From: Microbacterium sp. Nx66
GTDB lineage: Bacteria; Actinomycetota; Actinomycetes; Actinomycetales; Microbacteriaceae
Length of the DNA stretch: 64,000 bases
NCBI RefSeq assembly: GCF_904066215.1
Contig: NZ_LR880474.1
Location: forward strand, 2,666,001 to 2,730,000
Reading direction: 5' to 3'
Position numbers and translations under genes: made by a program. The first letter of the stretch is position 1, and the number at the start of each line of letters is the position of its first letter. Under the pieces are notes generated by a model. The model saw nothing but the letters and a program-made list of their open reading frames with translations, made no database searches and was not told where the DNA came from. Positions 35,776-50,996 of the stretch are shown here, piece after piece.

Positions 35776-36596
35776 ACGAGCCTCCGCCGAACGGCGTCGG
35801 AGACCACGTCGATCACGATCACCACGATGAGGATCTCGAGGATGATGAGCGAGAGCTGGTCGTAGCGGTAGAACGTGCGGACGGCGTCGATGAGCAGCCC
35901 CATCCCGCCCGCGCCGACGAGTCCGAGCACGGTCGATGCGCGCACGTTGAGCTCGAAGACGTAGAGGGTCTGGTTCGCGAAGGCGGGCCAGGCGTCCGGA
36001 AGGGCGAGCGTCCGGTTGATCTGCATCTGCGTCGCGCCCACGGCCCGGCCGGCCTCGAGGGGCCCGCGGTCGTTCGTGTCGATGGCCTCGGACACGAGCT
36101 TGACGATGATGCCGATGTTGAACAGGACCAGCGCCAGGATCCCGGGAAGGGCGCCGACGCCCACCATCGCCACGAGGATGGCGGCGTACAGCAGGTCGGG
36201 AACACTGCGCACGACGTTGAGGACCCCGCGCACGACCAGTCTCGCGCCCGTGTTCGGGTTCGTCGCCCGCGCCGCCCAGAAGCTCAGGGGCAAGGACACG
36301 GCGGCGCCCAGGGCGGTGGCGATGACCGCCATCTGCAAGGTCTCGATCAGCGGCGGGACCGTGCGCGGGAAGAACGACCAGTCGGGCACCAGCAGCTTCA
36401 GCACCTTGTCGGCGCCGTTCTGCCAGTTGCGCGCGATCGCGTCGAGGTCGACTCCGATGCCGACACCGGGCAGACACATCACGACCGTCACGGCGACCAC
36501 ACCCGCCAGGACAGCGGCTCCCTTCCAGGCACCGGGTGGGCGCCCGGGCACGTCGAGCGGTGCCACCGCGGTGTCCTGGTCGACGACGGGGGTCAC
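35772..36596 (-). CDS. phnE: Phosphonate-type ABC transporter permease (first PhnE)
   Basis: 274 aa permease with the loop [20 protein letters not shown] and the conserved [12 protein letters not shown] segment shared with the second PhnE. It overlaps the ATPase stop by four bases. One hydrophobic segment near the N-terminus ([18 protein letters not shown]) precedes the core. Confidence 0.9.
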
Positions 36597-37417
36597 GCGT
36601 CCAGCCGATCGTCCGAGGTGAGCGACCGGCCGTAGATGCCCTCGAAGTCCGCGTCCGAGGCACCGGCGGCGGGGCCGTCGTAGACGATCTCGCCCGCGCG
36701 CATGCCGATCATCCGGGCGCCGTATTCACGGGCGAGGTCGAGCAGGTGGAGGTTGACGAGCACCGTGATGCCGAGATCGCGGTTGATGCGCCGCAGGTCG
36801 TTCATCACGCCGTGCGCCGTGGGCGGGTCGAGGCTCGCCACCGGCTCGTCCGCCAGGACGACGCGAGGCTCCTGCGCCAGAGCGCGGGCGATCGCGACGC
36901 GCTGCTGCTGGCCGCCGGAGAGATCGGAGGCCCGCGCGTGCAGCTTGGGCAGGATCCCGACCCGGTCGAGCGCGTGGTACGCGCGCTGCCGGTCAACCTC
37001 AGGATAGGCACCGAGGAGTGTGCGCCACAGCGGCGTGTGGGCGAGACGCCCGACGAGCACGTTGTGCAGCACGCTGGCGCGACCGGCGAGGTTGAAGCCC
37101 TGGAAGACCATGCCGATGTCCCCCCGGAGCCGGCGCAGCGTGCGCGGGGAGGCGCCGCTGACGCGATGCCCGCCGACGTCGAGGGTGCCGGACGTGACCG
37201 GCACCAGGCCGTTGATCGTGCGGATGAGAGTCGACTTCCCCGAGCCGGAGAGCCCGACGACGGCGACCATCTCGCCCGCGGCGATCTCCAGTGAGACGCG
37301 GTTCAACCCGATCGTGCCGTTCGGATAGCGCACCGTCACATCGTCGAGACGGATGTTCCACGGCGTGGACGCCGCGGCCGGAGCCGCGGCGTCCACCGGG
37401 TGATGCGGAGCGGACAA
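36593..37417 (-). CDS. phnC: Phosphonate-type ABC transporter ATPase
   Basis: 274 aa. Walker [10 protein letters not shown], signature [15 protein letters not shown] and Walker [13 protein letters not shown] are complete. PhnC class by length, operon partners and the segment [20 protein letters not shown]. Starts one base after the binding-protein stop. Confidence 0.92.
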
Positions 37418-37418
37418 T

Positions 37419-38408
37419 TTACTGCAGCCCCAGGGCCTCGGCGGCCCGGGCGACGACGTCGAGCGACGCGGGGTCGGCCGGTGCGAGCTTGGTGATCGAG
37501 TAGATGCTCTCCAGGATCGTCGAGCCCTCCTCCGTGTTCGAGAACTCCTCGAGCGCGGTCGTGATGCGCTCCTGCAGCTCCGGGGACAGGTCGGCAGACA
37601 GAGCGACGCCGTCGTTCGGGATCTCCTCGGTCATGGCGAAGACGACGACCTTCTCCCCCACGTCCGGGGTGTCCTTCTGCACGATCGTGCGGGCGTCCCA
37701 GAAGCTGAAGCCCACCTCCGCGTCGCCGTTGTAGACGGCCAGCACGGACGCGTCGTTCGCAGTCACCGGGATCTGCTCGATGTCCGCGTCCGTGTCCAGG
37801 CCCGCCTCCTGGAGCGCGAGGATCGGGTAGATGTAACCGGCGGGGGACCCCGGGCCGAGGACGGCGACCTTCGCGCCCTCCACCTTGTCGATGCTGTCGA
37901 GACCGGCGGGTCCGGTCATGGCGTCGGCGCCGTTGCAGAAGAGCATCCCGTCACGCGCGACCGGCTCGTCCTCGCAGTACTTGTCGGGGTTGTTCGTCAT
38001 GAACTGCGCCGGGTAGGTGATGTTGCCGTTGCGCTCGGTCTGCAACACGACGGACGCGTCGTACATGTCGTTCGCCTGCCAGAGCTGCAGCGACGGCAGG
38101 AAGCCGATCTGCGCCTGCCCCGCGCCCATCGCCTCGACCGCGGCCTGGTAGTCCTTCGAGACGACACCGGTCACCTCGATCCCGAGCTCTTCCGTGAGGT
38201 AGTCGGTCAGCGGGGCGGCTGTCTCCACGAGGCCGTCCTGGTCCTGCGACGGGACGAGGGCGAGGACGAGGGAGTCCGGATCCTCGGCGGGGGCGGCGGA
38301 CGGGTCGGCCCCGGCAGTGGTGCCGGAGCACCCGGCGAGCGCGACGGTCAGCAGGGCACCGGCGGCGGCGAGACCGAGAACCGGGCGGCGGAAGGGGGAG
38401 GTACGCAT
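37419..38408 (-). CDS. phnD: PhnD-type phosphate/phosphonate substrate-binding lipoprotein
   Basis: 329 aa from ATG at 38408, six bases after AAGG; the ATG at 38414 has no room for a ribosome site. Lipobox L24-A-G-C27. The PhnD fold is seen in [41 protein letters not shown] and [19 protein letters not shown]. Ligand could be a phosphonate, phosphite or an organophosphate ester. No phosphonate-cleaving gene is nearby, and the operon instead contains a HAD phosphatase and an RpiR regulator. Confidence 0.88.
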
Positions 38409-38410
38409 GA

Positions 38411-39103
38411 TCATCCTTCGGTGGTGAGGGTGTGTGAAGTGGACGGAACGGAGGAGTCGGTGGCCCGCAGCCAAGCCTCGAGCTGCGGTGCGAGAGTGGC
38501 GAAGTCGGCCGCGCGGAAGGTCGGGGTCGCTGCCGGGTCGGCGAAGCCCCCGATCAGCGCGGTGGCGTGACCGCGGGCGTGTGCGGGAGCGAGATCGTTT
38601 CGCCACATGTCGCCGATGCTCAGGATGCGGGCATCGGGCGGCAGCGCATCGAGGACCTTCTCCATCCCGGCGGGCTTGCGGGCATCGGTCACGATGCGGT
38701 CGAACAGTCCCGCGAGCCCGAGGTGCTCCAGAGCCTCCGGAAGACGCAGGGCGGGGGCGTTGGTCACCAGCACGCGCTCCGCTACGGGGCCGGCGGTCCG
38801 AAGGAACTCGACCAGGCCGCTCGGGACCGTGACCGGAGCCGCAGCCGTGGCGAGCTGGGCGCGGCTCGCCAGGTAGGCCGCGCTGAGCACGGCACCGTCG
38901 GCGCCGAAGCTGTCCGCCGCGCGGCGGACGACGTCGTACCCGTCGACGGCGTCGGGGCCCGCGACGGCGAGCGCGACGCGGACGTCGTCGACGAACCGCT
39001 CCGACGCGCCCAGCGCGGTGGCCACATGTCGGGCGTAGGCGAGGACAGGGCCGTCGCCGAGCGCGATCGTGCCGTCGAAGTCGAAGAGGAGGATGGTGGT
39101 CAC
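38411..39103 (-). CDS. HAD-superfamily hydrolase heading the PhnCDEE-type operon
   Basis: 230 aa from GTG at 39103, preceded by GGAAGGAA. HAD motif I is LFDFDGT, motif II VLVTNAPA, the lysine motif DARKPAG and motif III SIGDMWRNDLAPA. It lacks the DWAGT motif of phosphonoacetaldehyde hydrolase, so a phosphomonoesterase (phosphoglycolate-phosphatase-like) is more likely. First gene of the six-gene operon, two bases before phnD. It probably dephosphorylates the imported compound; the substrate is unknown. Confidence 0.8.
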   Translation of the reverse strand: MTTILLFDFDGTIALGDGPVLAYARHVATALGASERFVDDVRVALAVAGPDAVDGYDVVRRAADSFGADGAVLSAAYLASRAQLATAAAPVTVPSGLVEFLRTAGPVAERVLVTNAPALRLPEALEHLGLAGLFDRIVTDARKPAGMEKVLDALPPDARILSIGDMWRNDLAPAHARGHATALIGGFADPAATPTFRAADFATLAPQLEAWLRATDSSVPSTSHTLTTEG

Positions 39104-39125
39104 GGGGTTCCTTCCGTGCGGACGC

Positions 39126-39197
39126 TCCGTCCAGCATGGGCAAACGACATGGACGGAACGCCCACAGCGCATGAACGCCGCGTGAACACTCCGTCCA
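39126..39197. promoter_or_regulatory. Three TCCGTCCA half-sites in the divergent promoter region
   Basis: TCCGTCCA at 39126-39133, its inverse TGGACGGA at 39150-39157 and another TCCGTCCA at 39190-39197. The first two form an inverted pair with 16 bp between. They lie between the HAD gene start (39103) and the divergent gene at 39210, so a regulator, perhaps the RpiR protein, could bind here. Confidence 0.5.
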
Positions 39198-39209
39198 CGT
39201 CGTTCCCGT

Positions 39210-39872
39210 ATGGTGAACGCCGTGTCCGAACTCGCTGCCCTCATGCACGCCGCCGACCGCGCCGCGACCAGCACCCCGGTCGCCGCGCAGAGCGCGATCG
39301 ACGCGTTGCCCTGGCTCGATGCCTCACTCCGGGCTGATCGCGATGCGAGGCGCTTCGCCGCGTGGGGCCGGTCGACCGCCGTCGACGAGAACACCGGCAC
39401 GGGCGTCATCGCGCCCGCCCTGTTCGACGAACTCCACCGGCGCGCGGGCCTGCCGGCGACCTGGCCGGTCGGTAACGCCGGGCTCCTGCACTGCTACGGC
39501 TACCTGCTCTCGCGGGAGCCCACCCCCTACGGCCTCAAGAGCGACCGCTGGCTGACCCCGGCGCTGCCTGTCGCCTGCGGACTCCCCGAGGACGCCTTCC
39601 TCCCCTGGCTCCCCGGTCCGACGCTCCTGGCCCGAGCGACCGCCGCGGCCGCCGCCCTGTCCGCAGGCCTGCACGGATCCACGGTCGCCGTCGCCGGCCG
39701 CGAGAGTCGGGTCTCTCTGAGCGCGTCGGAGGGGCCGGCGGCCCTGGCCTACGCGGTCGCACCATCCCCGGGGCTCCCCCCGCTCCCGGTCACGCTCTTC
39801 CCCGTGACCGACGCGGCGGCGATCCTCACCGAGTTCCCCGCGCTGCCGCGACTCCGCTGGAACGCGGCGTAG
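39210..39872 (+). CDS. Hypothetical protein, divergent from the PhnCDEE-type operon
   Basis: 220 aa from ATG at 39210; GTG codons at 39213 and 39222 are alternative starts, and no clear ribosome site favours any. No known domain was recognised. Ala/Leu/Pro-rich and soluble, with conserved-looking parts WPVGNAGLLHCYGYLLSRE and PYGLKSDRWLTPALP. Its stop codon is immediately followed by the stop of the convergent riboflavin kinase gene. Normal codon use and a dense neighbourhood support a real gene. It may belong to the phosphonate-type regulon because it shares that promoter region. Confidence 0.65.
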   Translation: MVNAVSELAALMHAADRAATSTPVAAQSAIDALPWLDASLRADRDARRFAAWGRSTAVDENTGTGVIAPALFDELHRRAGLPATWPVGNAGLLHCYGYLLSREPTPYGLKSDRWLTPALPVACGLPEDAFLPWLPGPTLLARATAAAAALSAGLHGSTVAVAGRESRVSLSASEGPAALAYAVAPSPGLPPLPVTLFPVTDAAAILTEFPALPRLRWNAA

Positions 39873-40286
39873 TCAGCGCCTCGCGAACGTGCGCCGCTCC
39901 GCGGCGAGAAGCCGCCGCGAGGCCGCGACATCCGCGGCGGTCCGGGCGACGAGCTCCGCGACCCCATCGAAACGGAGCGTCGGCCGGAGCAGCGCGACGA
40001 GCTCGACCGACAGCAGCTGCCCGTAGAGGTCGCGATCGATGTCGTGGAGGTGCACCTCGAGACGCCGCGCCCGGTCGCCACAGAACGTCGGATTGACGCC
40101 GATGCTCGCCGTCGCCTCCCACCGCCGGTCGTCGCCGGGCAAAAGCGCCCACGCCGCATAGATCCCATCGTCGGGCAGCAGCCGCTCGGACAGGGCGAGA
40201 TTCGCGGTCGGGAAGCCGAGCAGCCGACCGCGACCGTCGCCGGGGACGACCAGGCCGGAGAGCACCCGGGGCGCCGGTCCGCTCAC
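39873..40286 (-). CDS. rcaA: Stand-alone riboflavin kinase of the riboflavin catabolism cluster
   Basis: 137 aa from GTG at 40286, overlapping the flavin reductase stop by four bases (GTGA). It is a lone RFK domain: GRLLGFPTANLAL (G-(F/Y)-PTAN motif, ATP/Mg), SIGVNPTFCGDRARRLEVHLHD and DLYGQLLSVEL. Bifunctional RibF proteins have an additional N-terminal FAD synthetase domain that is absent here. It phosphorylates riboflavin to FMN, supplying the cofactor of the reductase and lyase. Gene content and order match rcaA-E of Microbacterium maritypicum. Confidence 0.85.
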   Translation of the reverse strand: MSGPAPRVLSGLVVPGDGRGRLLGFPTANLALSERLLPDDGIYAAWALLPGDDRRWEATASIGVNPTFCGDRARRLEVHLHDIDRDLYGQLLSVELVALLRPTLRFDGVAELVARTAADVAASRRLLAAERRTFARR

Positions 40287-40792
40287 ACGTCTCCGGCGGG
40301 CGAGATGGCGCGGTAACGGCTCTGGTGGAACACGAGCGGCTCGACGCCGTCGAAGAGCGTCACATCCTGGATCTCGTAGAGCGCGATCTCGTGGTCGCCA
40401 CCGTCGAACGTGCTGTGCAGCCGGCACGTGAGCCAGAGCGCGGCGTCGTCGATCAGCACGGCCCCACCCTCCGAGCGATGCCACGCGTGGCCGCCGAACC
40501 GGTCGCCTTCGCGCGCGGACAGGGAGCGGCTGAGCGGCTCATGGTGCGCCGCGAGGACACTCATCCCCAGTTCGGGGACGGCGCGCAGCACGGGCCACGT
40601 CTTCGAGGTGCGCGCGGCGCTGACGGCGACGAGGGCGGGCTCCAACGAGATCGAGGTGAAGGAGTTGACCGCCATACCGACGGCGCGGTCCTCGACGTGC
40701 GCGGCCAGCGCGACCACACCGGTCGGGTAGACGGAGAAGGCGCGACGGAGAGCGCGGTCCCGCGGCAGGGCGTCGGTCACGGCAGTGGTCAT
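40283..40792 (-). CDS. rcaB: Flavin reductase of the riboflavin catabolism cluster
   Basis: 169 aa from ATG at 40792, preceded by AAAGGA. Flavin-reductase-like split barrel: AFSVYPTGVVALAA, GMAVNSFTSISLEPALVAVS and FHQSRYRAI. NAD(P)H-dependent reduction of flavin supplies FMNH2 to the two-component lyase RcaE. First gene of a two-gene unit with rcaA, behind a near-consensus promoter whose start region is covered by the palindrome at 40809. Confidence 0.87.
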   Translation of the reverse strand: MTTAVTDALPRDRALRRAFSVYPTGVVALAAHVEDRAVGMAVNSFTSISLEPALVAVSAARTSKTWPVLRAVPELGMSVLAAHHEPLSRSLSAREGDRFGGHAWHRSEGGAVLIDDAALWLTCRLHSTFDGGDHEIALYEIQDVTLFDGVEPLVFHQSRYRAISPAGDV

Positions 40793-40808
40793 CACGAAGT
40801 CCTTTCGG

Positions 40809-40824
40809 TAGTCAACTTTGACTA
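40809..40824. promoter_or_regulatory. Operator of the rcaBA unit (7-2-7 palindrome)
   Basis: TAGTCAA-CT-TTGACTA, perfect inverted repeat. It begins seven bases downstream of the -10 box on the minus strand, so it covers the transcription start of rcaBA. The identical arms occur at 46661 before the importer genes. The PadR-type gene at 40887 is the obvious candidate for the binding protein. Confidence 0.8.
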
Positions 40825-40830
40825 GTTTGG

Positions 40831-40859
40831 ATTATATGTATTTTTGACCATGCAAACAA
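40831..40859 (-). promoter_or_regulatory. Promoter of rcaBA
   Basis: On the minus strand: -35 TTGTTT (40859-40854), 17-bp spacer, -10 TATAAT (40836-40831). This is the best sigma-70 type promoter in the window and lies in an AT-rich island. Confidence 0.75.
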
Positions 40860-40886
40860 CAGGTTCCACCGCACCGAGCCGTTAGC

Positions 40887-41483
40887 ATGAAGCGCATGTC
40901 GACCACCCGCCTCGTCGTCCTCGGTGCCGTCAAGCAGTTCCAACCGGTGCACGGCTACTTCCTGCGCCGCGAGCTCATGACCTGGCACGTCGACGAGTGG
41001 GCGCACATCCAGCCCGGTTCGATCTACAACGCCCTCCGCGCGCTCGAAGTCGACGGCTACGTGGCGGAGAGCGGCACCGAGACGGAGGGCAAGCGCCCCG
41101 CGCGCACCACCTACCGCATCACCCCGGCCGGCGAGGTGGAGCTGCAGCGCATGCTGCGCGAGAACCTCTGGAACGTCGCGGCCTTCGACACCCAGGCGAT
41201 CATGACCGTGGCCTCGTTCATGTTCGTCCTCAGCCGGCAGGAGGTCATCGCCGGCCTCGAGCACCGGCTCATCAAGAGCGACGCGATCATCACGCAGAAC
41301 GGCTTCGACGTGCAGGACACCCTGCGCTCGGAGACGACCCCGGAGTACGTGCGCGAGATCTTCGACCTCTCCACCGCCCGACTCACCGCCGAGAAGGAGT
41401 GGCTCCTGACGCTGCTGGAGCGGCTGCGTGCCGGAGCGTACACATTCGCCGGCGAGACGGCGGAGACCACCCCTACGCGCTGA
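40887..41483 (+). CDS. rcaC: PadR-family transcriptional regulator of riboflavin catabolism
   Basis: 198 aa; ATG at 40887 (MKRMSTTRL) or 40896, neither with a clear ribosome site. Winged helix of the PadR type: LVVLGAVKQFQPVHGYFLRREL, QPGSIYNALRALEVDGYV, RPARTTYRITPAGEVEL. A C-terminal helical dimerisation region follows. Divergent from rcaBA across the palindrome, so it probably represses rcaBA, itself and the importer-rcaE-rcaD unit. Effector is presumably riboflavin or a product. The symbol is inferred from its place between rcaB and rcaD. Confidence 0.75.
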   Translation: MKRMSTTRLVVLGAVKQFQPVHGYFLRRELMTWHVDEWAHIQPGSIYNALRALEVDGYVAESGTETEGKRPARTTYRITPAGEVELQRMLRENLWNVAAFDTQAIMTVASFMFVLSRQEVIAGLEHRLIKSDAIITQNGFDVQDTLRSETTPEYVREIFDLSTARLTAEKEWLLTLLERLRAGAYTFAGETAETTPTR

Positions 41484-41505
41484 TACCGCCGCGCCCAGCG
41501 CGGAC

Positions 41506-42390
41506 TCAGCGCCGCGCTACCAGAGCCTCCAGAGCGGTGACGGACAGCGCCGGAGTGGTCGCCCCACGGTGACGGGCGACGATCGCCCCCGCGGCACAGG
41601 CACGGACGAGAGCGTGCTCGATGTCGTGACCCTGGGCGAGCCCCGCAGCGAGGGCGCCGCAGAAGGCATCCCCGGCTCCCGTCGTGTCGACGGCGTCGAT
41701 GCGGAAGGCCGGCACGTGCACGCCGGGGCGCCCTGGCCGATGCAGCGTCACACCGGCGGCCCCCTCCGTGAGCACGACCGCCCCGGCGCCGGCGCCGAGG
41801 AGCCGCTCGACGCCGCCGAGTTCCGCGCACTCCGTCTCGTTCACGACCAGCACGTCCACCTCCGGCAGCAGGTCGACGGCGGCGGGGTGCGCGGGGGCGG
41901 CGTTGAGGATCGTGAGGGTCCCGGAGGCATGTGCGGCGGCCAGGGCGGCGGCGACCGCGGCGAAGGGCACCTCGAGCTGAGTGAGCATCACGGCCGCCCC
42001 GACGGTCCCGGCCACGGCGTCTTCCGGAGTGAGCTCGCCGTTCGCCCCCGCCGCCACGAGGATGCTGTTGTCGCCGTCGTCGAAGGCCAGCACGTGCGCG
42101 ACCCCGGTCGGCGCGGACGCGGAGCGGCGGAGCGCGGCGTCCACTCCCGCCTCCGTCAGCGCCGCCTCCAGAACGGCGCCGGCCTCGTCCGCTCCGACGA
42201 CGCCGCAGAACGTGGTCACGGCTCCCGCGCGGGCCGCGGCGACAGCCTGGTTCAGACCCTTGCCACCGGGGAAGCGGCCTCCGGCCCGGCCGAGCAGCGT
42301 CTCACCGACGCGGGGAGGACGCGACACCTCGACCACGAGGTCGAGGTTCGCGCTCCCCACGACGGCGACGCCGGCGAGGCTGTCAGACAC
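41506..42390 (-). CDS. rcaD: Ribokinase of the riboflavin catabolism cluster
   Basis: 294 aa PfkB-family kinase. GSANLDLVVEVSRPPRVGETLLG at the N-terminus, GGKGLNQAVAAARAG (substrate loop) and DTTGAGDAFCGALAAGLA (anion hole, catalytic Asp) are ribokinase signatures. It phosphorylates ribose released from riboflavin to ribose 5-phosphate. Its start overlaps the rcaE stop by eight bases, so translation is coupled. Convergent with rcaC. Confidence 0.87.
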   Translation of the reverse strand: MSDSLAGVAVVGSANLDLVVEVSRPPRVGETLLGRAGGRFPGGKGLNQAVAAARAGAVTTFCGVVGADEAGAVLEAALTEAGVDAALRRSASAPTGVAHVLAFDDGDNSILVAAGANGELTPEDAVAGTVGAAVMLTQLEVPFAAVAAALAAAHASGTLTILNAAPAHPAAVDLLPEVDVLVVNETECAELGGVERLLGAGAGAVVLTEGAAGVTLHRPGRPGVHVPAFRIDAVDTTGAGDAFCGALAAGLAQGHDIEHALVRACAAGAIVARHRGATTPALSVTALEALVARR

Positions 42391-43762
42391 GGGCCATCGT
42401 CCGCCGGAACGACGACCCGATGTGGGAGTCGGCGAGCGCGGGCGTCGGGGTGCCCATCAGCCGTTCCCGCAGCGACTCCGGCTCGGCTGCGGGGTCGGCG
42501 ATCGCCCCGCGCTCCTTGAGGATCGGCAAGACGTGCTCGATGAAGTCGGCGGTCGAGGCCGGCGGGATCACCGGAGCGAAGAGGAAGCCGTCGAGGTCGG
42601 CGCCGTCGGCGAGCTCCATCATCCGGTCCGCCACCTGCTCCGGCGTGCCCACGATCGGGCGGGCGCCCACGCCGTGCGCGTGCCAGTCGCCCAGGACATC
42701 GCCCACCGTCTTGTCGGCGAAGCGCGCGACCTGCGTCTGCGAGAGTTCGGTGCGGAGCTCGGACATCGGCGTGCTCGGGTCGTACGACGACAGGTCGAGA
42801 CCGGTGAACCAGGCGTAGGAGGCGACGGTGACCTCGGGATTCTGCGCATCGGCGACCTCCGCGTAGGTGCGGCGGGCCTCCTCCTCGGTGCTGCCGACGA
42901 CCGCGGCGAACGCCGACATGATCTTCACCTCGTGCGCCGCACGGCCGTTCTTCACCGCCTCCTCGCGGATCGCCGAGGAATGCGTGCGGAGCTGCTCGAC
43001 CGAGCCGCTCCCGACGAAGATCGCCTCGCCGTGCTTGCCGCCGAACTCGCGACCGGCGGGCGACGCCCCGGCCTGGAACAGCACCGGCGTGCCCTGCGGC
43101 GAGCGCTGCGTGTTGCCGTAGCCGTGCGAGCGGAAGTAGGGCCCGTCGTGCGCGATGCGGTGGACTTTGGCCGGGTCGGCGAAGCGGCCGGACTTGTCGC
43201 GCTCCAGCGCCCCTTCCTCCCAGGCCTCCTCCCACAGCTTGTAGACGACCTGCATGAAGTCGTCCGCCATCAGATAGCGCTCGTCGTGTCCCACCATCGG
43301 CACGCCGAAGCCCTGCACCGCGGTGTCGGCCGTGCCGGTGGTGACGACGTTCCAGCCGATCCGGCCCCCGGACAGGATGTCGAGAGTGGCCAGGCGTCGG
43401 GCGAAGGAGTACGGCGGCTCGAGCAGGGTCGATCCGGTGGCGACCAGGCCCAGGCGGGTGGTCTCCGGGATGAGGGCGGCGAGGATGATCGCCGGGTCGA
43501 GCCGCGGCAGATCCAGGCCCTCGACGGAGCAGATCTCCGGCCGCTCACCGGCGACGTCGGCCCAGCCCCACGCGTCGGCGAGGAAGAGGAAGTCGAAGCC
43601 CGCGTTCTCGACCAGGCGCGCGGTGTCGCGCCAGTAGTCGAGCTTGTCGAAGAGGTAGCGCCGATTGTCGGGGTGGCGCCAGGTCGCGGTGCCGGAGTCG
43701 TTCGCCTGGGCGTTCTCGAAGAGTCCGAGCCGCAGGGTCTTCACGGGGTGCTGAGCGGTCAT
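42383..43762 (-). CDS. rcaE: Riboflavin lyase/hydrolase, LLM-class flavin-dependent oxygenase
   Basis: 459 aa, NtaA/SnaA/DszA-type bacterial-luciferase-like monooxygenase. Typical segments are TLRLGLFENAQANDSGTATWRHPD, RLGLVATGSTLLEPPYSFARRLATLDILSGGR, GWNVVTT and GGKHGEAIFVG. RcaE uses reduced flavin and O2 to cleave riboflavin to lumichrome and ribose. Assignment rests on gene context: riboflavin kinase, flavin reductase, regulator, ribokinase and lyase in the published A-to-E order. Without that context the family alone would allow many substrates, such as nitrilotriacetate or sulfonates. Confidence 0.83.
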   Translation of the reverse strand: MTAQHPVKTLRLGLFENAQANDSGTATWRHPDNRRYLFDKLDYWRDTARLVENAGFDFLFLADAWGWADVAGERPEICSVEGLDLPRLDPAIILAALIPETTRLGLVATGSTLLEPPYSFARRLATLDILSGGRIGWNVVTTGTADTAVQGFGVPMVGHDERYLMADDFMQVVYKLWEEAWEEGALERDKSGRFADPAKVHRIAHDGPYFRSHGYGNTQRSPQGTPVLFQAGASPAGREFGGKHGEAIFVGSGSVEQLRTHSSAIREEAVKNGRAAHEVKIMSAFAAVVGSTEEEARRTYAEVADAQNPEVTVASYAWFTGLDLSSYDPSTPMSELRTELSQTQVARFADKTVGDVLGDWHAHGVGARPIVGTPEQVADRMMELADGADLDGFLFAPVIPPASTADFIEHVLPILKERGAIADPAAEPESLRERLMGTPTPALADSHIGSSFRRTMARV

Positions 43763-43869
43763 GGCGGATGCCTTCCTGGGAGTGGGGGATGGAGTCGTTC
43801 GGAGTTTCCGGGCACGCCGGGGGAACCCGGGGGCGCGGGGTCGCGCTCCCGGGACCGGGGGTCGTGCGG

Positions 43870-44718
43870 TCAGCCCTTCGCGGTGACCTCGCCGTCGCTC
43901 CACCACAGGACGCGCCGGCGCACGACCGCGAGGAGCACGATGAGGAGCACCCCGAGCAGGCAGAGCAGAGCGATGCTCGCCCAGGTCACGGGCAGGTTCG
44001 CCTGTGCCGCCGAGGTGGTGACGAGGGAGCCGAGACCGGCCTGCTGACCGGCCGCGACGAACTCGGCCACGGCGGCGCCGACGACGGCGAGGGGCAGTGC
44101 GATCCGCAGACCGGCGAACACGTACGGCATGCTGCCGGGGAACCGCAGCTCGCGGAAGATCTCCCACCGCGAGGCGTGCAGCGTCGTGAACACGTCGAAC
44201 GCCTTCTGGTCCACGTCGCGGAGGCCGGCGAGCGAGTTCACGAGCATGGGGAAGAAGACCACGAGTCCTGTGACGATGAACTTCGGCACCATGCCGAACC
44301 CGAAGGCGACGACCAGCGCCGGGGCGATCGCGACGATCGGCGTCACCATCACGATGATGACCAGCGGCATGACGGCCCGCTCGATGATCTGGAACTCGGC
44401 CATCACGACGGCCAGCAGGAAGCCCGCCAGTATGCCGGCGGAGGCCCCGACGACGACCTCCAGCAGCGTCACGAGGAAGTTCGACCAGTACATGCCCGCG
44501 TCCTCGACGAGGCTGGCGCCGATGGCCTCCAGCGTCGGCAGGACGTACGGGTTGGTCCACGCCACGATCTGCCAGAGCAGAGCCGCGATCACGAACGTGA
44601 TCAGGGTCGGTCCCCACGAGCCCCAGCGGAGCCAGCCGGGGATGCCGCGGCGGGGCTGCGCCTTCAGCCGCGCCGTGGCGAGGGTGGCGGTGGTGTCTCT
44701 CATCGTCAGCTCAGACAT
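43870..44718 (-). CDS. ABC transporter permease, probably riboflavin uptake
   Basis: 282 aa SsuC/ThiX-type permease from ATG at 44718 (ATG at 44703 also possible), overlapping the ATPase by eight bases. About six hydrophobic segments; the EAA loop is TLHASRWEIFRELRFPGSMP. It is followed after 107 bp by rcaE on the same strand, and no obvious promoter lies between, so transporter, rcaE and rcaD probably form one operon. Confidence 0.82.
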   Translation of the reverse strand: MSELTMRDTTATLATARLKAQPRRGIPGWLRWGSWGPTLITFVIAALLWQIVAWTNPYVLPTLEAIGASLVEDAGMYWSNFLVTLLEVVVGASAGILAGFLLAVVMAEFQIIERAVMPLVIIVMVTPIVAIAPALVVAFGFGMVPKFIVTGLVVFFPMLVNSLAGLRDVDQKAFDVFTTLHASRWEIFRELRFPGSMPYVFAGLRIALPLAVVGAAVAEFVAAGQQAGLGSLVTTSAAQANLPVTWASIALLCLLGVLLIVLLAVVRRRVLWWSDGEVTAKG

Positions 44719-45508
44719 GGGCCTTCTCCGTCTGCGCGCGCAGCGCACCGCGCACGACTGCCTCCAGGTCGCGGAACTCGTCCGTCGCGTACGCCTCCTC
44801 GGTGCGCGGTCGCGGGAGGTTCACATCGATCACCTCGGCGATGCGGCCAGGGTGGGCCGCCATCACCACGATCCGGTCGGAGAGCATGATCGCCTCCGGC
44901 ACCGAGTGCGTCACGAACATCACGGCCTTGCGGTTCGACTGCCAGAAGTCCAGCAGGGCGATGCGCTGCAGGTCGCGGTTCATCTCGTCGAGGGCGGAGA
45001 ACGGCTCGTCCATCAGCATGATCGCCGGGTCGAACACGAAGGCCCTGGCGATCGCGGCGCGCTGCTGCATACCGCCGGAGAGCTGCCCCGGGTACTTCTT
45101 CAGCGCATGCCCGAGTCCGAACGTCGACAGCAGCTCGGCGGGGTCGCGGAGGGCGCGGTCGCCGTTGGCCCCGCGGTTGATCCGCACGGGGAGCTCGACG
45201 TTCTCGCGCACCGTCTTCCACGGCAGGAGCGCCGGGGACTGCGGGACGAGACCGATCTTCTTGTCGCGGGAGGCCGCCGTGACGCTCTCGCCGTCGATCG
45301 TGACGGTGCCGGAGTCGGCGTCGAGGAGTCCGGCGACCACCTTGAGCAGCGTGGACTTGCCGCACCCGCTGGGCCCGATCACCGACACGAATTCGCCCAT
45401 GCCGATCGTGAGGCTCACGTCGTCGAGCACCGTCACCTGGGCTCCGTCGACGCCGAAGGACTTCGAGACGTTCCTGACCTCGACGCCCGCGCCGTGTGCC
45501 GCGGTCAT
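44711..45508 (-). CDS. ABC transporter ATPase, probably riboflavin uptake
   Basis: 265 aa. Walker A GPSGCGKST, signature LSGGMQQRAAIARAF and Walker B IMLMDEPFSALD are complete, with HSVPEAIMLSDRIVVM after it as in SsuB/TauB/ThiZ ATPases. The start overlaps the binding-protein stop by one base (TGATG). Confidence 0.85.
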   Translation of the reverse strand: MTAAHGAGVEVRNVSKSFGVDGAQVTVLDDVSLTIGMGEFVSVIGPSGCGKSTLLKVVAGLLDADSGTVTIDGESVTAASRDKKIGLVPQSPALLPWKTVRENVELPVRINRGANGDRALRDPAELLSTFGLGHALKKYPGQLSGGMQQRAAIARAFVFDPAIMLMDEPFSALDEMNRDLQRIALLDFWQSNRKAVMFVTHSVPEAIMLSDRIVVMAAHPGRIAEVIDVNLPRPRTEEAYATDEFRDLEAVVRGALRAQTEKAHV

Positions 45509-46611
45509 CACTTCTCCGCCCAGACGAGGGTGTCGCCGTCGTACAGGTCGGCCACGAGATCCGGGTCCATCATGTCGGCGATGGCGGGGAGGTCCTTGAC
45601 GTCGCCGTACTCCTGCACGATCTCGTACTCGGGCTGCCACATGTCCTCGGTCTGCACGCCGGGGTTGCCGCCCGCACTCTCGCGCACCCAGGCCGACTCG
45701 ACCTCCCACGTACGGGCGAGCTGATCGCGCGGGAACGCCGCACCCTGGCCGTTCTCCTCCGCGAGGGCCGCCAGCATGTCGATGCATTCGTCCGCCTCGT
45801 CGAGGCAGAACTGCAGGGCCTTGAGGCTCGCGCGCATGAAGTCGGCGGCGACCTCACGGTGCTCGTCGAGGAAGCGCGAGTTCACCTCCATGACGTTGTA
45901 CGTGCCCTCGACGCCGAGGGCGGAGGGCAGGAACTCGCTGAACGGGAGGTCCTGTGCCTTGAGGGTCTGCGGCTGGTTGGAGGCGTAGCCGACGATCGCG
46001 TCGACCTGCTCGCGCACGACGACGGTCGGGTCGTAGTTGGTCATCTTCACCATCTCGACCTTCGAGACGTCCACCCCGGCCTCATCGAGCATGGCCGAGG
46101 CGATGGGCGTGAGGTTGATGAAGTACCCCAGCGAGCCGCCTTCGAGGTCGGTGAGGTCGGCGAGCTTCTCGTTGCCGAAGATCGAGAACGGCGGGGTCGT
46201 GCCGTAGGTCGCTACCGCGGTGAGGTTCTTGCTGTTCGCCGCGGCGAGCATCACATCGGAGGCGGAGCCGAGAGCGGTGAACTGCGCCTGCCCGGAGGCG
46301 ACGAGCTGCTGCCCGTTCGCACCGGACGCGTTGATCTCCACGTCGAGGCAGAGGTCGTCGAAGTAGCCCAGCTCCTTCGCCAGGAACACGTCGAGCTGCC
46401 CGGCGCTGGCGGAGTAGCCGTAGCCGGAGATGTAGGTGATGGTGCCGGCATCCTGGTTGCGCTGGCAGGCGTCGCTGCCGCCCGCGCTCGTGGGGGCGGT
46501 ATCGCCGCCGGGCGCCGGCGAGGAGCAGGCTCCGAGCGTCAGCGTGGCGGCGAGAACGCACGTCAGGGTGGCAGTGGTGCGGAATCGGGTTTCCGCAGAG
46601 GAAGTAGCCAT
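45508..46611 (-). CDS. NMT1/THI5-type substrate-binding lipoprotein, probably riboflavin
   Basis: 367 aa from ATG at 46611, preceded by AGAAGGGA. Lipobox L26-G-A-C29. The fold is that of SsuA/ThiY/RibY binding proteins: FLAKELGYFDDLCLDVEI, ASGQAQFTALGSASDVMLAA and FMRASLKALQFC. Such proteins bind aromatic vitamins and precursors as well as sulfonates and nitrate. Its place at the head of the rcaE-rcaD operon and the shared operator with rcaBA point to riboflavin. Several Cys pairs (DACQRN, DLCLD, CLDEADEC) are unusual for the family and may form disulfides. Confidence 0.8.
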   Translation of the reverse strand: MATSSAETRFRTTATLTCVLAATLTLGACSSPAPGGDTAPTSAGGSDACQRNQDAGTITYISGYGYSASAGQLDVFLAKELGYFDDLCLDVEINASGANGQQLVASGQAQFTALGSASDVMLAAANSKNLTAVATYGTTPPFSIFGNEKLADLTDLEGGSLGYFINLTPIASAMLDEAGVDVSKVEMVKMTNYDPTVVVREQVDAIVGYASNQPQTLKAQDLPFSEFLPSALGVEGTYNVMEVNSRFLDEHREVAADFMRASLKALQFCLDEADECIDMLAALAEENGQGAAFPRDQLARTWEVESAWVRESAGGNPGVQTEDMWQPEYEIVQEYGDVKDLPAIADMMDPDLVADLYDGDTLVWAEK

Positions 46612-46660
46612 GAGGGTCCCTTCTCGGCCGTTCGTCATTGATGGCTCGATGAAAGTAACA

Positions 46661-46676
46661 TAGTCAATCTTGACTA
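46661..46676. promoter_or_regulatory. Operator of the importer-rcaE-rcaD operon (7-2-7 palindrome)
   Basis: TAGTCAA-TC-TTGACTA, arms identical to those at 40809. It lies 50 bp upstream of the binding-protein ATG in an AT-rich patch. A possible minus-strand promoter, TTGATC (46687-46682), 17 bp, ACTATG, overlaps it, so binding would block polymerase. Confidence 0.78.
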
Positions 46677-46713
46677 AGCAAGATCAAACTAACTCCATCG
46701 GCACGATCCGGTG

Positions 46714-46782
46714 ACGGATGCACGACTCCCCCGGGCCTCGGCTCGTGCGCGCGAAACACGGTCGTGCATCCGTGGCCCGGGG
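46714..46782. repeat. Intergenic repeat with GTCGTGCA arms, family C-like copy 2
   Basis: GGATGCACGAC (46714-46724) is complementary to GTCGTGCATCC (46762-46772), and CCCCGGGCC (about 46728) to GGCCCGGGG (46774-46782). The two pairs interleave in the order A, B, A', B'. It lies in the region upstream of the riboflavin importer and downstream of the gene at 46830. Confidence 0.6.
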
Positions 46783-46829
46783 AGAGAACGAGAAGGAACA
46801 GTGTCCAGGACGGGACGGGACGGGCGGAT

Positions 46830-47957
46830 TCAGACCGGGGTCGAGCGGAGCGGCCAGGCGGGCCACCAGCCGTCGTCGAGCCCGCGCAGCAGGGCGCCCG
46901 TGCGCTCTCGCGCCTCCGCGGGCATCTCCGGAGCGGGGCCTGAGCTGCTCTCCCGCCGGTCGCCGTCCGGCGACCGGATCTCGGTGTACAGCCACGCGCG
47001 GCGGCCGACGGGATACTTCTCCCGGAAGCCACCGGCGGCGACCGACAGCAGGATCCGCTCCAGCTCGTCCGCCGCCGTCTCGGCGGTCTCGTCGCAGGCA
47101 TCGCAGATGCACGACGGCACGATCGCGTGGAAGTGGGCGCCCGCCTCTACGCTGACGGAGGGAACGGTCGGCGTGATGACGACTCGCGCACCGCGCGCCG
47201 GTTCGAGCACGACGCGCTCCGTCCCGTCCTCCCCCGACTCTCGCCGCGCCTCGACTTCGTACTCGCGGGAGAGGTGCTCGACGAGCGCGTCGACCACGAG
47301 AAGCAGCGGTGCGAAGCGCTCCGGGTGGCTCTCCCGAGAGTACGACTCCTCCGGTGCGATGCCATCGGGCCAGCGGCGTCCGTAACGGATGACCTCGCCG
47401 CGGTCGTCGTGGAAGGTCAGGGGCGGGAGAGCGGGCCGGACATACGCGCGCGCCGGGACGACGACGACCGCGGGAGCGGAATCCTCCGCGGACAGCGCTC
47501 TCATCTCCTCGTCATCGATGTCGTCCTGCTCCCACGACGCGAGCATCTGCAGGAACGCATCCCGCTGGTCGGGCTGCTGCACCATCCCCTGCACGAGACC
47601 CGCGACCGGGATGGAGAGGGTGTTCGTCCCGATCTCCGGCTCGCTCGTCATCCGCCAGGTCGCGGCCGGGTGCACGACCGCGATGACGTTGCCGACGAAG
47701 CGCGCGGCGGCCGCCGCGAGGTCCGGGCGGTCGAGGATCTCCGGACGCGCTGCCACCACATCCCACGTCGCCGCGAGGTCGTCGGCCAGCAGCGCGGGGT
47801 CGATCCCGAGGCCCCGCAGGAAGTCGGCGAACGGCTCGAAACCGTCGACGAAGCGGACCGGCCGCAGGGCCTCCGCCGGCGATGGCATCCACAGGATCGC
47901 GGCGGCACCCGCCTCGGGCATCGGGCCGAGGGGACCGGGGAAGACGTCACTGCTCAT
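46830..47957 (-). CDS. Hypothetical protein downstream of ramB
   Basis: 375 aa from ATG at 47957; no known enzyme domain recognised. No signal peptide or membrane segment. The C-terminal half has a conserved-looking block RYGRRWPDGIAPEESYSR, then LLLVVDALVEHLSREYEVEA and VPSCICDACDETAETAADEL with a C-x-C-x2-C cluster, resembling small actinobacterial proteins of unknown function. The N-terminal half (GPMPEAGAAAILWMPSPAEALRP) looks like a separate domain, so this may be a fusion. Separated from the upstream ramB stop by 22 bp, possibly co-transcribed. Confidence 0.7.
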   Translation of the reverse strand: MSSDVFPGPLGPMPEAGAAAILWMPSPAEALRPVRFVDGFEPFADFLRGLGIDPALLADDLAATWDVVAARPEILDRPDLAAAAARFVGNVIAVVHPAATWRMTSEPEIGTNTLSIPVAGLVQGMVQQPDQRDAFLQMLASWEQDDIDDEEMRALSAEDSAPAVVVVPARAYVRPALPPLTFHDDRGEVIRYGRRWPDGIAPEESYSRESHPERFAPLLLVVDALVEHLSREYEVEARRESGEDGTERVVLEPARGARVVITPTVPSVSVEAGAHFHAIVPSCICDACDETAETAADELERILLSVAAGGFREKYPVGRRAWLYTEIRSPDGDRRESSSGPAPEMPAEARERTGALLRGLDDGWWPAWPLRSTPV

Positions 47958-47979: not shown

Positions 47980-49425
47980 TCACCGGGGCGCGTGGGACTC
48001 CAGGAACTCGTACACATCGGTGGTGTCCACGCCGGGGAAGGCACCGGTGGGCAGCGTCGCCAGCAGCGTGCGCGGGGTCTTCACGTTGGGCCAGGAGTTC
48101 TCGCGCCACCGCTCCTCCAGCTCGGCGGGAGCCCGACGGCAGCACACCTCGACCGAGTGCTTCGACACACCGCGGTGCGGGGTGTCCCTGCCGACGAACC
48201 ACTTCGTGTCATCGAACCGCACCCCGACGCTCACCGAGTGCAGACCCTCGCTCGATGCCTCCACACGGGCGGTGCACCAGTAGGTGCCGTTCCCGGTGTC
48301 GGTGTACTGGTAGTACGGGTTGAACCGGTCGTCCTCGTCGAACACCACCCGGGAGGTCCACCGGCGGCAGCACATCTGCCCCTCGATGGCGCCGAGCCGG
48401 TCGGTCGGGAAGTTCACGTCGTCGTTCTCGTACGCCTTCGTGATGGTGCCCGACTCATGCACCTTGAGGAAGTGCACGGGGATGTCGAGGTGCCGCGTCG
48501 CGAGGTTCGTGAACCGGTGCGCCGCCGTCTCATACGACACCGAGTATGCGTCACGGAGGTCTTCGATGGAGATCGCCCTCCGCTGCTTGGCATCCTGCAA
48601 AGCGGGGACGACGTGCGCCTCCGGGATGAGCAGGGCACCGGTGAGGTAGTTCGTCTCCACCCGCTGCCGGAGGAACTCGGCATAGCTGCGCGGCTCGGAG
48701 TGCCCCAGGATACGGCTCGACAGCGCCTGCAGCACCGCGGTGCGTGCGTCTCCCTTCGCCGGGACGCTGCTCGACAGGTACAGCCGGCCGTTGGCGAGGT
48801 CGGCGACGCTGCGGGTCGTCTGCGGCAGGTCGGGGGCGTAGTGGAGGGTGAAGCCGAGATGGGCCGCGATCTCCGAGGCGGTGCGCTGGGTCAGCGGTCC
48901 CCCGGGATGGCCGACGGCCGCGAGGATCTCGGCCGCCTTCGCCTCCAGCTCGGCGAAGTGGTTGTCCTGCCGGCGCATCAGATGCCGCAGTTCGACGTTG
49001 GCGCGCCGGGCCTCCTCCGGGGTCGCGGCGCGCTCGTCCTTGAGTCGGTCGATCTCCCCCTGCAGCGCCAGCAGGGCCTTCAGCGCCTCCGTCGGCACAC
49101 TCTTGGCGATGCGGAACGGCGCGATGCCCAGCGCCTGGAACGTCTGCCCCTTCATCGCGCGTTCCAGGGCGACCTCGATCGCGCTGCGCTCGTCGAGCGG
49201 CTCCCCCGTGAGCAGCGCGTCGATGGTCACCCCGAGCGCGCGGGCGATCGCCTGGAGCTGCGTGAGCTTGGGCTCGCGCTTGCCCGTCTCGATCATCGAC
49301 ATCTGGCTCGGCGCCCGCTCGACCGCGGCCGCGAGCTCTTCGAGCGTCAGGCCCCGCGCGGTGCGCAGCTGGCGGATGCGCCGCCCGACAGTGAGGGCGT
49401 CGGTCTCTTCCGTGGTGTCGTCCAT
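47980..49425 (-). CDS. ramB: RamB-type (ScfR) transcriptional regulator of acetate metabolism
   Basis: 481 aa from ATG at 49425. The N-terminal XRE helix-turn-helix ([40 protein letters not shown]) is followed by a coiled region ([13 protein letters not shown], about 115-165). A long C-terminal domain has [37 protein letters not shown] and several cysteines. In Corynebacterium and Mycobacterium RamB controls glyoxylate-cycle genes. It is divergent from aceA here, 245 bp between, supporting local control of aceA and aceB. Confidence 0.87.
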
Positions 49426-49670
49426 GTCGGCTCCTCTCAGCCCACCGCCGTCCGCGTCGGTGCGGGATCGGGAACGCTCCTCGCGAGGCCGGGCCGGGGT
49501 CTTTCCTGATCCCGCGAGGCCGCGTGAGCGGTGCGTGCGGGCCGAGTCTGTCACGAAAACAGAAATCCAGTCAAACTTCTCCTCATTTCGGCACCGGAGA
49601 GGCGCCGAACTTCACACAGAGTGGAGGCACGCCATCGGCACCGACGCCGATTCCCATCCGAGGAGACACC

Positions 49671-50996
49671 ATGACGAACACCGCAGCGACCCCCACCCCG
49701 CGCCCCGCCGGCCTGCGCGCCGGCGATCAGGTCCAGACGGCGGCGGAGCTCCAGGAGATCTGGGACACCGACCCGCGCTGGGACGGTGTCGAGCGCACGT
49801 ACTCCGCCGAAGACGTCGTCCGCATCCGCGGCTCGGTCCGCGAGGACGCCACCCTCGCCCACCGCGGTGCGGAGAACCTCTGGAACCTCCTGCACACGGA
49901 GGACTACATCCGGGCGCTCGGCGCCTACACCGGCGGCCAAGCCGTGCAGCAGGTGCGCGCCGGCCTGAAGGCCATCTACCTCTCCGGATGGCAGGTCGCC
50001 GCCGACGGCAACCTCGCCGGACAGACCTACCCCGACCAGTCGCTCTATCCGGCGAACTCGGTCCCGGCGGTCGTGCGTCGCATCAACAACGCCCTGCTCC
50101 GGCAGGACCAGCTCGAGCACGCCGAGGGTGAGATCACGCAGGACTGGCTCGCGCCGATCGTCGCCGACGCCGAGGCCGGCTTCGGCGGACCGCTGAACGC
50201 GTACGAACTCGCGCAGTCGCTCATCCAGTCCGGTGCCGCCGGCATCCACTGGGAGGACCAGCTCGCGAGCGAGAAGAAGTGCGGCCACCTCGGCGGCAAG
50301 GTGCTCGTGCCCACGCAGCAGCACATCCGCACTCTCAACGCGGCCCGTCTCGCGGCGGACGTCGCCGGTGTTCCGACCGTCATCATCGCCCGCACCGACG
50401 CCCTCGCCGCCGATCTGCTCACGAGCGACGTCGACGAGCGCGACCGGGAGTTCACCACAGGCGAGCGCACGTCCGAGGGCTTCTACCGGATCCGCCCCGG
50501 CATCGAGTCGGTCATCAGCCGCGGCCTCGCCTTCGCCCCGTACGCCGACCTGCTCTGGGTCGAGACCGGGGAGCCGGACATCGAGCTGGCGCGGGAGTTC
50601 GCCGCGGCCATCCACGCGCGGTTCCCCGGTAAGCTCCTGGCCTACAACTGCTCCCCGAGCTTCAACTGGAAGCGCCACCTGTCGGACGCCGAGATCGCGA
50701 CGTTCCAGCAGGATCTGGCAGACCTGGGCTACAAGTTCCAGTTCATCACCCTGGCCGGGTTCCACGCCCTGAACCACTCCATGTTCGACCTCGCCCGCGG
50801 TTACGCCGAGCGCGCCATGAGCGCCTACGTCGAGCTGCAGGAGGCCGAGTTCGCCGCCGAGGCCGACGGGTACACCGCCACCAAGCACCAGCGTGAGGCG
50901 GGCACCGGCTACTTCGACGTCATCTCCACCGCGCTCAACCCCGACAGCGCCACCCTCGCCCTCGCCGGCTCCACCGAGACCGCCCAGTTCCACTGA
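49671..50996 (+). CDS. aceA: Isocitrate lyase
   Basis: 441 aa from ATG at 49671, preceded by GAGGAG. It cleaves isocitrate to glyoxylate and succinate. The catalytic signature KKCGHLGGK (202-210, Cys204) and the Mg-binding DAEAGFGG segment are present, with IARTDALAA and [12 protein letters not shown] further on. Standard bacterial ICL1 length. First gene of the aceA-aceB pair for growth on acetate, fatty acids or ethanol. Confidence 0.97.

Follow-up and report, generated by a model that had tools for sequence, protein, structure and literature searches.

Cleaving riboflavin is one way in which the breakdown of vitamin B2 begins. Whether the vitamin is cleaved for feeding or to release lumichrome as a signal is a question raised in 2025 (PMC12746152). 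The rca locus of Microbacterium sp. Nx66 poses it for a stretch of 64,000 nucleotides, here called the window. Do its eight neighboring genes form a unit that imports riboflavin, cleaves it, and is switched by its own regulator?

The eight open genes occupy positions 39873-46611, where the preliminary description had placed them. Their order on the plus strand is rcaA-rcaB-rcaC-rcaD-rcaE-permease-ATPase-SBP, and only rcaC is encoded on the plus strand, the other seven being on the minus strand. The features are as follows.

39873..40286, minus strand: rcaA, single-domain riboflavin kinase (Flavokinase), 137 aa; PF01687 7.2e-33, residues 74-192 of a longer frame
40283..40795, minus strand: rcaB, flavin reductase (Flavin_Reduct); PF01613 7.2e-35
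40809..40824, unstranded: predicted operator for RcaC, in the space from which rcaB and rcaC diverge
40887..41483, plus strand: rcaC, PadR-family regulator, 198 aa; PF03551 5.8e-14, model matches PadR-family structures
41506..42390, minus strand: rcaD, ribokinase (PfkB/ribokinase family); TIGR02152 9.6e-67, 225 bits
42383..43762, minus strand: rcaE, riboflavin lyase/monooxygenase, 459 aa; riboflavin lyase 5w48 E 5.7e-221, 320/449 identical
43870..44718, minus strand: importer permease; BPD_transp_1 8.8e-27, start inferred from homologue coverage
44711..45508, minus strand: importer ATPase; ABC_tran 1.2e-35, start read from the open frame
45508..46611, minus strand: importer lipoprotein (SBP), NMT1/THI5 family, lipobox Cys near residue 29; Pfam NMT1 8.6e-31, start conserved in the alignment of homologues
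46661..46676, unstranded: predicted operator for RcaC; the 7-bp arms of its inverted repeat match perfectly, and 49 bp separate it from the importer start

The SBP stop is overlapped by the ATPase ATG, the ATPase stop by the permease start, and the rcaE stop by rcaD. The importer had been described as fused in front of rcaE-rcaD; the genes are adjacent, none is fused, and 107 bp separate the permease from rcaE. For rcaA, the best reading is the 137-aa frame, with a GTG overlapping the rcaB stop, in preference to a 203-aa open frame. Its designation as a lone riboflavin kinase is correct, as the protein has a single domain and the only other Flavokinase match of the genome (C1:1460381) lies in a 465-aa frame that, as expected, fits a bifunctional RibF. 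The rcaD score is below the cut-off of 299.65 for TIGR02152, an NCBIfam equivalog. No simple-consensus match to sigma-70 promoters or terminators was found in 39700-46900.

Enzyme activities have been reported by others for homologues of the Rca proteins and are assigned here by homology. The lipoprotein would bind external riboflavin, and the permease and ATPase would pump it inward. RcaA would phosphorylate part of this riboflavin to FMN, which RcaB would reduce. RcaE, using reduced FMN and oxygen, would convert riboflavin to lumichrome and ribose. RcaD would phosphorylate the ribose for use as carbon, and lumichrome would remain. RcaC, as a repressor on TAGTCAANNTTGACTA upstream of importer-rcaE-rcaD and of rcaB-rcaA, would be released when riboflavin or lumichrome builds up. 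We regard this whole scheme of import, cleavage, and RcaC control as highly probable.

Dozens of genomes share the gene set, which is therefore not a chance grouping. Of 56 database loci, 53 have importer genes next to rcaE, and these 53 were the loci analyzed. The three left out all have an RcaE of at least 57% identity: L052 is a short contig with no importer seen in 2.2 kb, L055 has no importer, and L075 is the other half of the L035 cluster and carries the L035 ribokinase. All seven of rcaA, rcaB, rcaC, rcaE, and the importer genes are found in 51 of the 53 loci, with the kinase not detected in L049. Ribokinase is detected in 36 and not detected in 17, four of which (L018, L035, L041, and L043) are cut or short. 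Among 589 genomes surveyed, this SBP is carried by all 39 with rcaE (one rcaE being a contig-end fragment). A single genome, G346, has the SBP without rcaE, apparently a case of decay. In two Streptomyces clusters, a PnuC/RibM-type gene follows rcaA, and the 8-10 kb flanks contain neither an ABC importer nor a PadR gene.

The 3.46 Mb genome has only two exact copies of the inverted repeat TAGTCAANNTTGACTA. Both lie in the rca island, one upstream of the importer and one in the space that separates rcaB from rcaC. Most related clusters, spanning two phyla, carry the repeat in the same two places, either exactly or with mismatches. Of 53 SBP genes, 46 are preceded by a best site with at most two mismatches, and 47 of 50 rcaB/rcaC spaces contain one as good; in L047 the best match in that space has four mismatches. 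Two loci with a displaced kinase and reductase have no site with three or fewer mismatches near rcaC. Among rca loci, the exact repeat is confined to Microbacterium and one Demequina, and the others carry variants. Within the genus, 3 of the 27 genomes with rcaE lack an exact site; in the survey of the family, 11 of 12 do. From these sequence patterns, TAGTCAANNTTGACTA is likely the operator of RcaC.

Sites outside rca loci were also found. The single two-mismatch site of this genome adjoins a PadR-like gene, as does the exact site in G267. Genome G477, which lacks rca genes, has an exact site flanked by genes that, on visual inspection, look TetR-like on one side and carboxylesterase-like on the other. 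This TetR-like neighbor refutes the proposal that exact and near-exact repeats elsewhere always lie beside a PadR gene.

RcaC has the PadR winged-helix domain and fold, as seen in the PF03551 match and the structure model, and its Trp95 is invariant among the homologues aligned. It is probably a repressor that acts at the predicted operator, with riboflavin or lumichrome as the presumed releasing ligand. The rca switch could offer a compact riboflavin biosensor.

The main role of the island may be to make a lumichrome signal from the cell's own riboflavin, rather than to use external riboflavin. Begley and colleagues raise signaling, having found no strain with rcaE beside lumichrome-degrading genes (PMC12746152). 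The present bacterium probably makes its own riboflavin, since the genome has a lumazine synthase with an FMN riboswitch, its only such match (C1:1085770), about 3 kb away. However, the importer is linked in every analyzed locus, a PnuC-type gene is present in both Streptomyces clusters, and ribokinase is found in those 36 loci, which points to an imported substrate and use of the ribose. Signaling as the main role is thus unlikely, and the two roles could coexist. Together, the linked importer and a switch that probably senses the substrate favor feeding on the imported vitamin.

Lumichrome is probably the end product in this bacterium. The pathway of M. maritypicum ends there, and the lum cluster of Nocardioides simplex is the next stage of riboflavin breakdown (PMC12746152). 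The check for lumichrome degradation covered P450s in five rcaE-bearing genomes, this one among them. The frame that holds the single P450 match of this genome has 446 aa, which is not long enough for a fused P450 of the LumU type. One frame was inspected among the four other genomes, that of Nocardioides astragali (L135), and by eye it is a plain P450. The locus had been called a complete riboflavin catabolism cluster of rcaA-E plus importer. All eight genes are present, but the word complete is too strong given where the M. maritypicum pathway ends and the short P450 frame.

From its linkage and the transporter swap, we infer that the rca importer takes up riboflavin. Somewhat less probable than a primary signaling role is that this importer carries another ligand, e.g., a thiamin precursor, and is a mere neighbor of the rca genes. 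The solved sequences nearest the SBP, whose predicted model is of moderate quality (mean pLDDT 73), are 3ix1, which binds the pyrimidine formylaminopyrimidine, and the thiamin-bound 4nmy; none is flavin-binding. The public names of some importer genes begin with "Thiamine pyrimidine synt". Against this stand the tight linkage and co-occurrence with rcaE, the predicted operator common to importer and rca genes, and the replacement of the importer by a PnuC/RibM-type gene in Streptomyces. An Rfam search of the window matched one tRNA and no riboswitch, so a TPP riboswitch is absent at the importer and riboswitch control of it is rejected. A scan of 20 of 30 SBP loci, each to 1.5 kb beyond the gene, gave no riboswitch match either; L087, L095, and L098 among the 20 are rca-type and the remainder are distant paralogues. 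A riboflavin importer would correct the generic or thiamin-related names that these genes carry.

RcaE matches the Bac_luciferase/NtaA-DmoA family, and NCBIfam assigns it to the NtaA/DmoA subfamily with 417 bits. Its score to the solved riboflavin lyase is 737 bits, versus 302 for dimethyl-sulfide monooxygenase, 225 for nitrilotriacetate monooxygenase, and at most 302 for any of the other 20 solved sequences matched. With these scores ruling out a generic NtaA/DmoA monooxygenase, and with a riboflavin kinase and a flavin reductase in the cluster, it is scarcely credible that RcaE is another member of that family acting on a sulfonate or chelator. Its earlier identification as a riboflavin lyase stands: identity to 5w48 is high, the other enzyme classes are far off, and the sequence-based objection of closer nitrilotriacetate or sulfonate monooxygenases therefore fails.

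It is probable, with less assurance than for the scheme itself, that the island is a self-contained uptake-and-cleavage unit. This unit would have a dedicated riboflavin importer without an FMN riboswitch, interchangeable with the PnuC/RibM-type carrier of Streptomyces. RcaC would be a PadR repressor that senses riboflavin or lumichrome and controls the two TAGTCAANNTTGACTA-marked rca transcription units and nothing else, and the island would move between phyla, also on plasmids. No report of the rca importer or RcaC operator was recognized among the open-licence papers listed; the 2016 G10 and 2020 Devosia papers on riboflavin breakdown, cited in PMC5399262 and PMC12934955, fall outside that scope, and absence from print is not claimed.

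Several known systems resemble parts of the island. Unlike the lum cluster of Nocardioides simplex, this genome showed no LumU-like fused P450 in the P450 search. LmrR, B. subtilis PadR, and VanR are PadR-type regulators with structures containing aromatic ligands, and LmrR binds riboflavin (0.26 uM) and then loses DNA affinity (PMC4534193). Entries for PadR and VanR are among the matches to the RcaC model, although with an rmsd near 19 A on both; overlays are poor to partial, with TM 0.33-0.62 among the 24 best and Rv0047c giving the best TM.

RibXY of Chloroflexus, for which riboflavin uptake has been shown, is composed of a permease and SBP of the nitrate/sulfonate/taurine superfamily, and its orthologues carry an FMN riboswitch (PMC4418817). 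The rca SBP and permease belong to the thiamin-precursor/sulfonate superfamily, a likeness by family rather than by direct sequence comparison, but no FMN riboswitch was found in the window.

The riboflavin monooxygenase cluster of Devosia riboflavina (L042) is similar in RcaE (66%), importer (69-75%), and PadR (65%). It differs in having ribokinase after the kinase and operator candidates with one mismatch each. The closest system is M. maritypicum MF109 (L004), with which the alignment to M. maritypicum was run. Its gene set and order are identical, importer included, in agreement with the rcaA-E order described earlier, and the only difference seen is sequence divergence. Protein identities range from 63 to 96%: RcaA 63% (over the longer, 203-aa frame), RcaB 88%, RcaC 95%, RcaD 74%, RcaE 92%, permease 95%, ATPase 96%, and SBP 91%. 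Because the gene order is the same, the catabolic part of the island is already known from MF109.

The island at 39873-46611 is made up of eight genes, all of them open and of the families that the preliminary description had named. Each was assigned by its open frame and a family match, as follows.

46611-45508, minus strand, SBP, the NMT1/THI5-type importer lipoprotein
45508-44711, minus strand, importer ATPase
44718-43870, minus strand, importer permease
43762-42383, minus strand, rcaE, riboflavin lyase
42390-41506, minus strand, rcaD, ribokinase
40887-41483, plus strand, rcaC, PadR regulator
40795-40283, minus strand, rcaB, flavin reductase
40286-39873, minus strand, rcaA, kinase

From SBP to rcaD, consecutive starts and stops overlap, save for a gap of 107 bp between the permease gene and rcaE. 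The divergent rcaC and rcaB are 91 bp apart. This arrangement suggests two minus-strand transcription units plus rcaC. A 220-aa open frame (39210-39872) directly abuts the rcaA stop with its end; it has no Pfam or NCBIfam match, and relatives are present in only 4 of the best 80 RcaE loci (L009, L012, L021, L022). Just beyond rcaA, translations judged by eye give an ABC transporter of phosphonate type, distinct from the island's importer and made up of two permeases, an ATPase, and a lipoprotein, together with a HAD-like hydrolase frame (34960-39409). At 47980-50996, again by eye only, a helix-turn-helix regulator frame is divergent from an isocitrate lyase-like frame, a pair that suggests glyoxylate-cycle control.

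RcaE matches the riboflavin lyase 5w48 at 737 bits in a search of the sequences of solved structures, with 320 of 449 aligned residues identical. The other 20 sequences matched, among them dimethyl-sulfide, hexachlorobenzene, alkane, dibenzothiophene, and nitrilotriacetate monooxygenases, reach at most 302 bits. Across the 349 genomes of the family survey, RcaE matches are 65-71% identical in 11 genomes besides the source genome and then drop to at most 42%. By sequence, therefore, RcaE is not nearer to nitrilotriacetate or sulfonate monooxygenases, the kinship that was to speak against a riboflavin lyase. In two genomes of the surveys, the matched RcaE stretch is listed with one internal stop codon (G460:C6:28599-29945 and G497:C1:2199207-2200559).

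Related clusters were collected by a short-peptide-pattern scan of genome contigs. RcaE identity is at least 57% in 56 of the best 80 of 90 relatives and at most 45% in 24. Analysis covered 53 of the 56, leaving out L052 (a 3.7-kb contig, importer not seen in its 2.2 kb upstream), L055 (without importer), and L075 (the other half of the cluster at L035). SBP, ATPase, and permease are present in all 53, and rcaA, rcaB, rcaC, rcaE, and the importer together in 51, the exceptions being L035 (cut off) and L049 (kinase not detected). The ribokinase was detected in 36 of the 53; its gene follows rcaA in some and lies between rcaE and rcaC in the others. Two Microbacterium esteraromaticum loci (L045, L054) have kinase and reductase on the importer's far side. 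An acidobacterial contig (L073:2377-11451) carries an RcaE-like gene (39%), a flavin reductase (42%), and a PnuC-like match 7 kb on.

The importer also accompanies rcaE across genomes. In the genus survey (247 Microbacterium genomes), RcaE is found in 27 and SBP in 28; the extra genome, G391, has the beginning of rcaE at a contig end. The family survey, at thresholds of at least 65% identity for RcaE and 63% for SBP, gives 12 and 13. Its extra genome, G346, keeps importer and PadR genes (L119:8595-11837), and matches to rcaE, rcaA, and rcaB were not found within an 18-kb stretch; by eye, the SBP signal sequence is in a different frame from the body. This locus is apparently an rca remnant. The surveys have 7 genomes in common, and of the 589 in total, 39 have rcaE, all 39 have SBP, and one has SBP alone, though because of kinship the number of independent events is much lower than 39. 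The importer proteins diverge from one another much as the RcaE proteins do (r of pairwise distances, 0.89-0.92), a correlation that common ancestry by itself would equally produce. In six other loci of the family (L099, L101, L102, L103, L111, L115), more distant importers (SBP 33-41%) have as neighbors LLM-type monooxygenases only 24-27% identical to RcaE; such sets might take up and cleave other heterocycles.

For all seven proteins, the mean alphaproteobacterial-actinobacterial distance is smaller than the largest distance within actinobacterial clusters, a relation that would fit movement of the island as a unit between phyla. All eight genes, plus fsa, a fructose-6-phosphate aldolase gene, are found on a Maritalea myrionectae plasmid that typing classes as mobilizable (L130:6174-13590).

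The strongest indirect sign that the ABC system would carry riboflavin comes from two Streptomyces clusters, in which a PnuC-type gene stands in its place. In Streptomyces sp. SID8352 (L055) and, on a megaplasmid, Streptomyces sp. NBC_00841 (L129), ribokinase, rcaE, rcaB, and rcaA are followed by PnuC-family genes 78% identical to each other; the L129 ribokinase match is split in two pieces. SBP, permease, and RcaC matches were not found in the 8-10 kb flanks, and the sole ATPase match there, in L055, is 30% and 8 kb away. The L055 gene matches PF04973 (9e-43) and falls just below the NCBIfam PnuC cut-off. The PnuC family includes RibM, an actinobacterial carrier for which riboflavin transport has been shown by experiment, although sequence alone hardly tells RibM from PnuC (PMC4418817).

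The only solved-structure sequence matches of the SBP (E up to 0.01) are 3ix1 (3e-14), which binds formylaminopyrimidine, and the thiamin-bound 4nmy (1e-4). These are likewise the top two structure matches of a moderate SBP model. In public records, the rca SBP has either a generic name or one that refers to thiamin pyrimidine synthesis.

The predicted RcaC operator is the inverted-repeat pattern TAGTCAANNTTGACTA. Its only exact matches in the 3.46-Mb genome are the following.

46661-46676, minus strand, inverted repeat TAGTCAAGATTGACTA
40809-40824, minus strand, inverted repeat TAGTCAAAGTTGACTA

With up to 2 mismatches allowed, the genome holds a third site, which has 2, and two matches for the pattern read backwards. 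In the genus survey, exact sites occur in 26 of 247 genomes: 24 of the 27 with rcaE (two sites in 22, one in G406 and G450), G391, and G477, which has its site though it is without rca genes. Read backwards, the pattern matched 1 genome. In the family survey, exact sites were confined to the source genome and G267 and were not found in the other 11 rcaE-bearing genomes; related clusters, e.g., in Salinibacterium, have variants. Within 250 bp upstream of SBP, the best site has 0, 1, 2, or 3 mismatches in 23, 12, 11, and 7 of the 53 loci; in 50 testable rcaB/rcaC spaces, it has 0, 1, 2, 3, or 4 in 21, 21, 5, 2, and 1. Fewer than 5% of 200 simple shuffles each equal the best site in 53/53 SBP upstream regions and 49/50 rcaB/rcaC spaces. 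At L045 and L054, both sites lie between kinase/reductase and importer, with no site near rcaC.

Outside rca, the G267 site adjoins a PadR-like gene 33% identical to RcaC, and the 2-mismatch site of the source genome adjoins another (31%, tblastn). The G477 site, unlike these, adjoins a TetR-like gene. A related repeat, TAGTCCATGTGGACTA (L120:2631-2646), lies upstream of the 31% PadR-like gene, itself before an efflux-like gene, which hints at a PadR operator type.

The RcaC model (mean pLDDT 82.5) has 24 structure matches at E of at most 0.001, all PadR-family save a few named by locus alone. The top matches, with modest TM-scores, are Bacillus subtilis PadR with operator DNA, Rv1176c, VanR, and Rv0047c. 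Riboflavin is a plausible inducer of RcaC because LmrR, also a PadR protein, is described as binding riboflavin at 0.26 uM, with an affinity for its promoters that is then lower by a factor of about 2-4 (PMC4534193).

Lumazine synthase and a single FMN riboswitch lie about 3 kb from each other in the source genome, which therefore probably makes its own riboflavin. Its single P450 match falls in a frame of 446 aa. The island was rightly recognized as a riboflavin catabolism cluster, and by its genes it would provide import, cleavage, and ribose salvage, but "complete" goes too far. The pathway probably stops short of full breakdown, since lumichrome is described as precipitating unaltered in M. 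maritypicum (PMC12746152).

The catabolic cluster is already known: alignment with M. maritypicum, as strain MF109 (L004), shows all eight genes, arranged identically. The importer and the predicted operator are a modest, testable addition. By its description in PMC4418817, RibXY, the riboflavin importer of Chloroflexus, is of the same superfamily as the rca importer.
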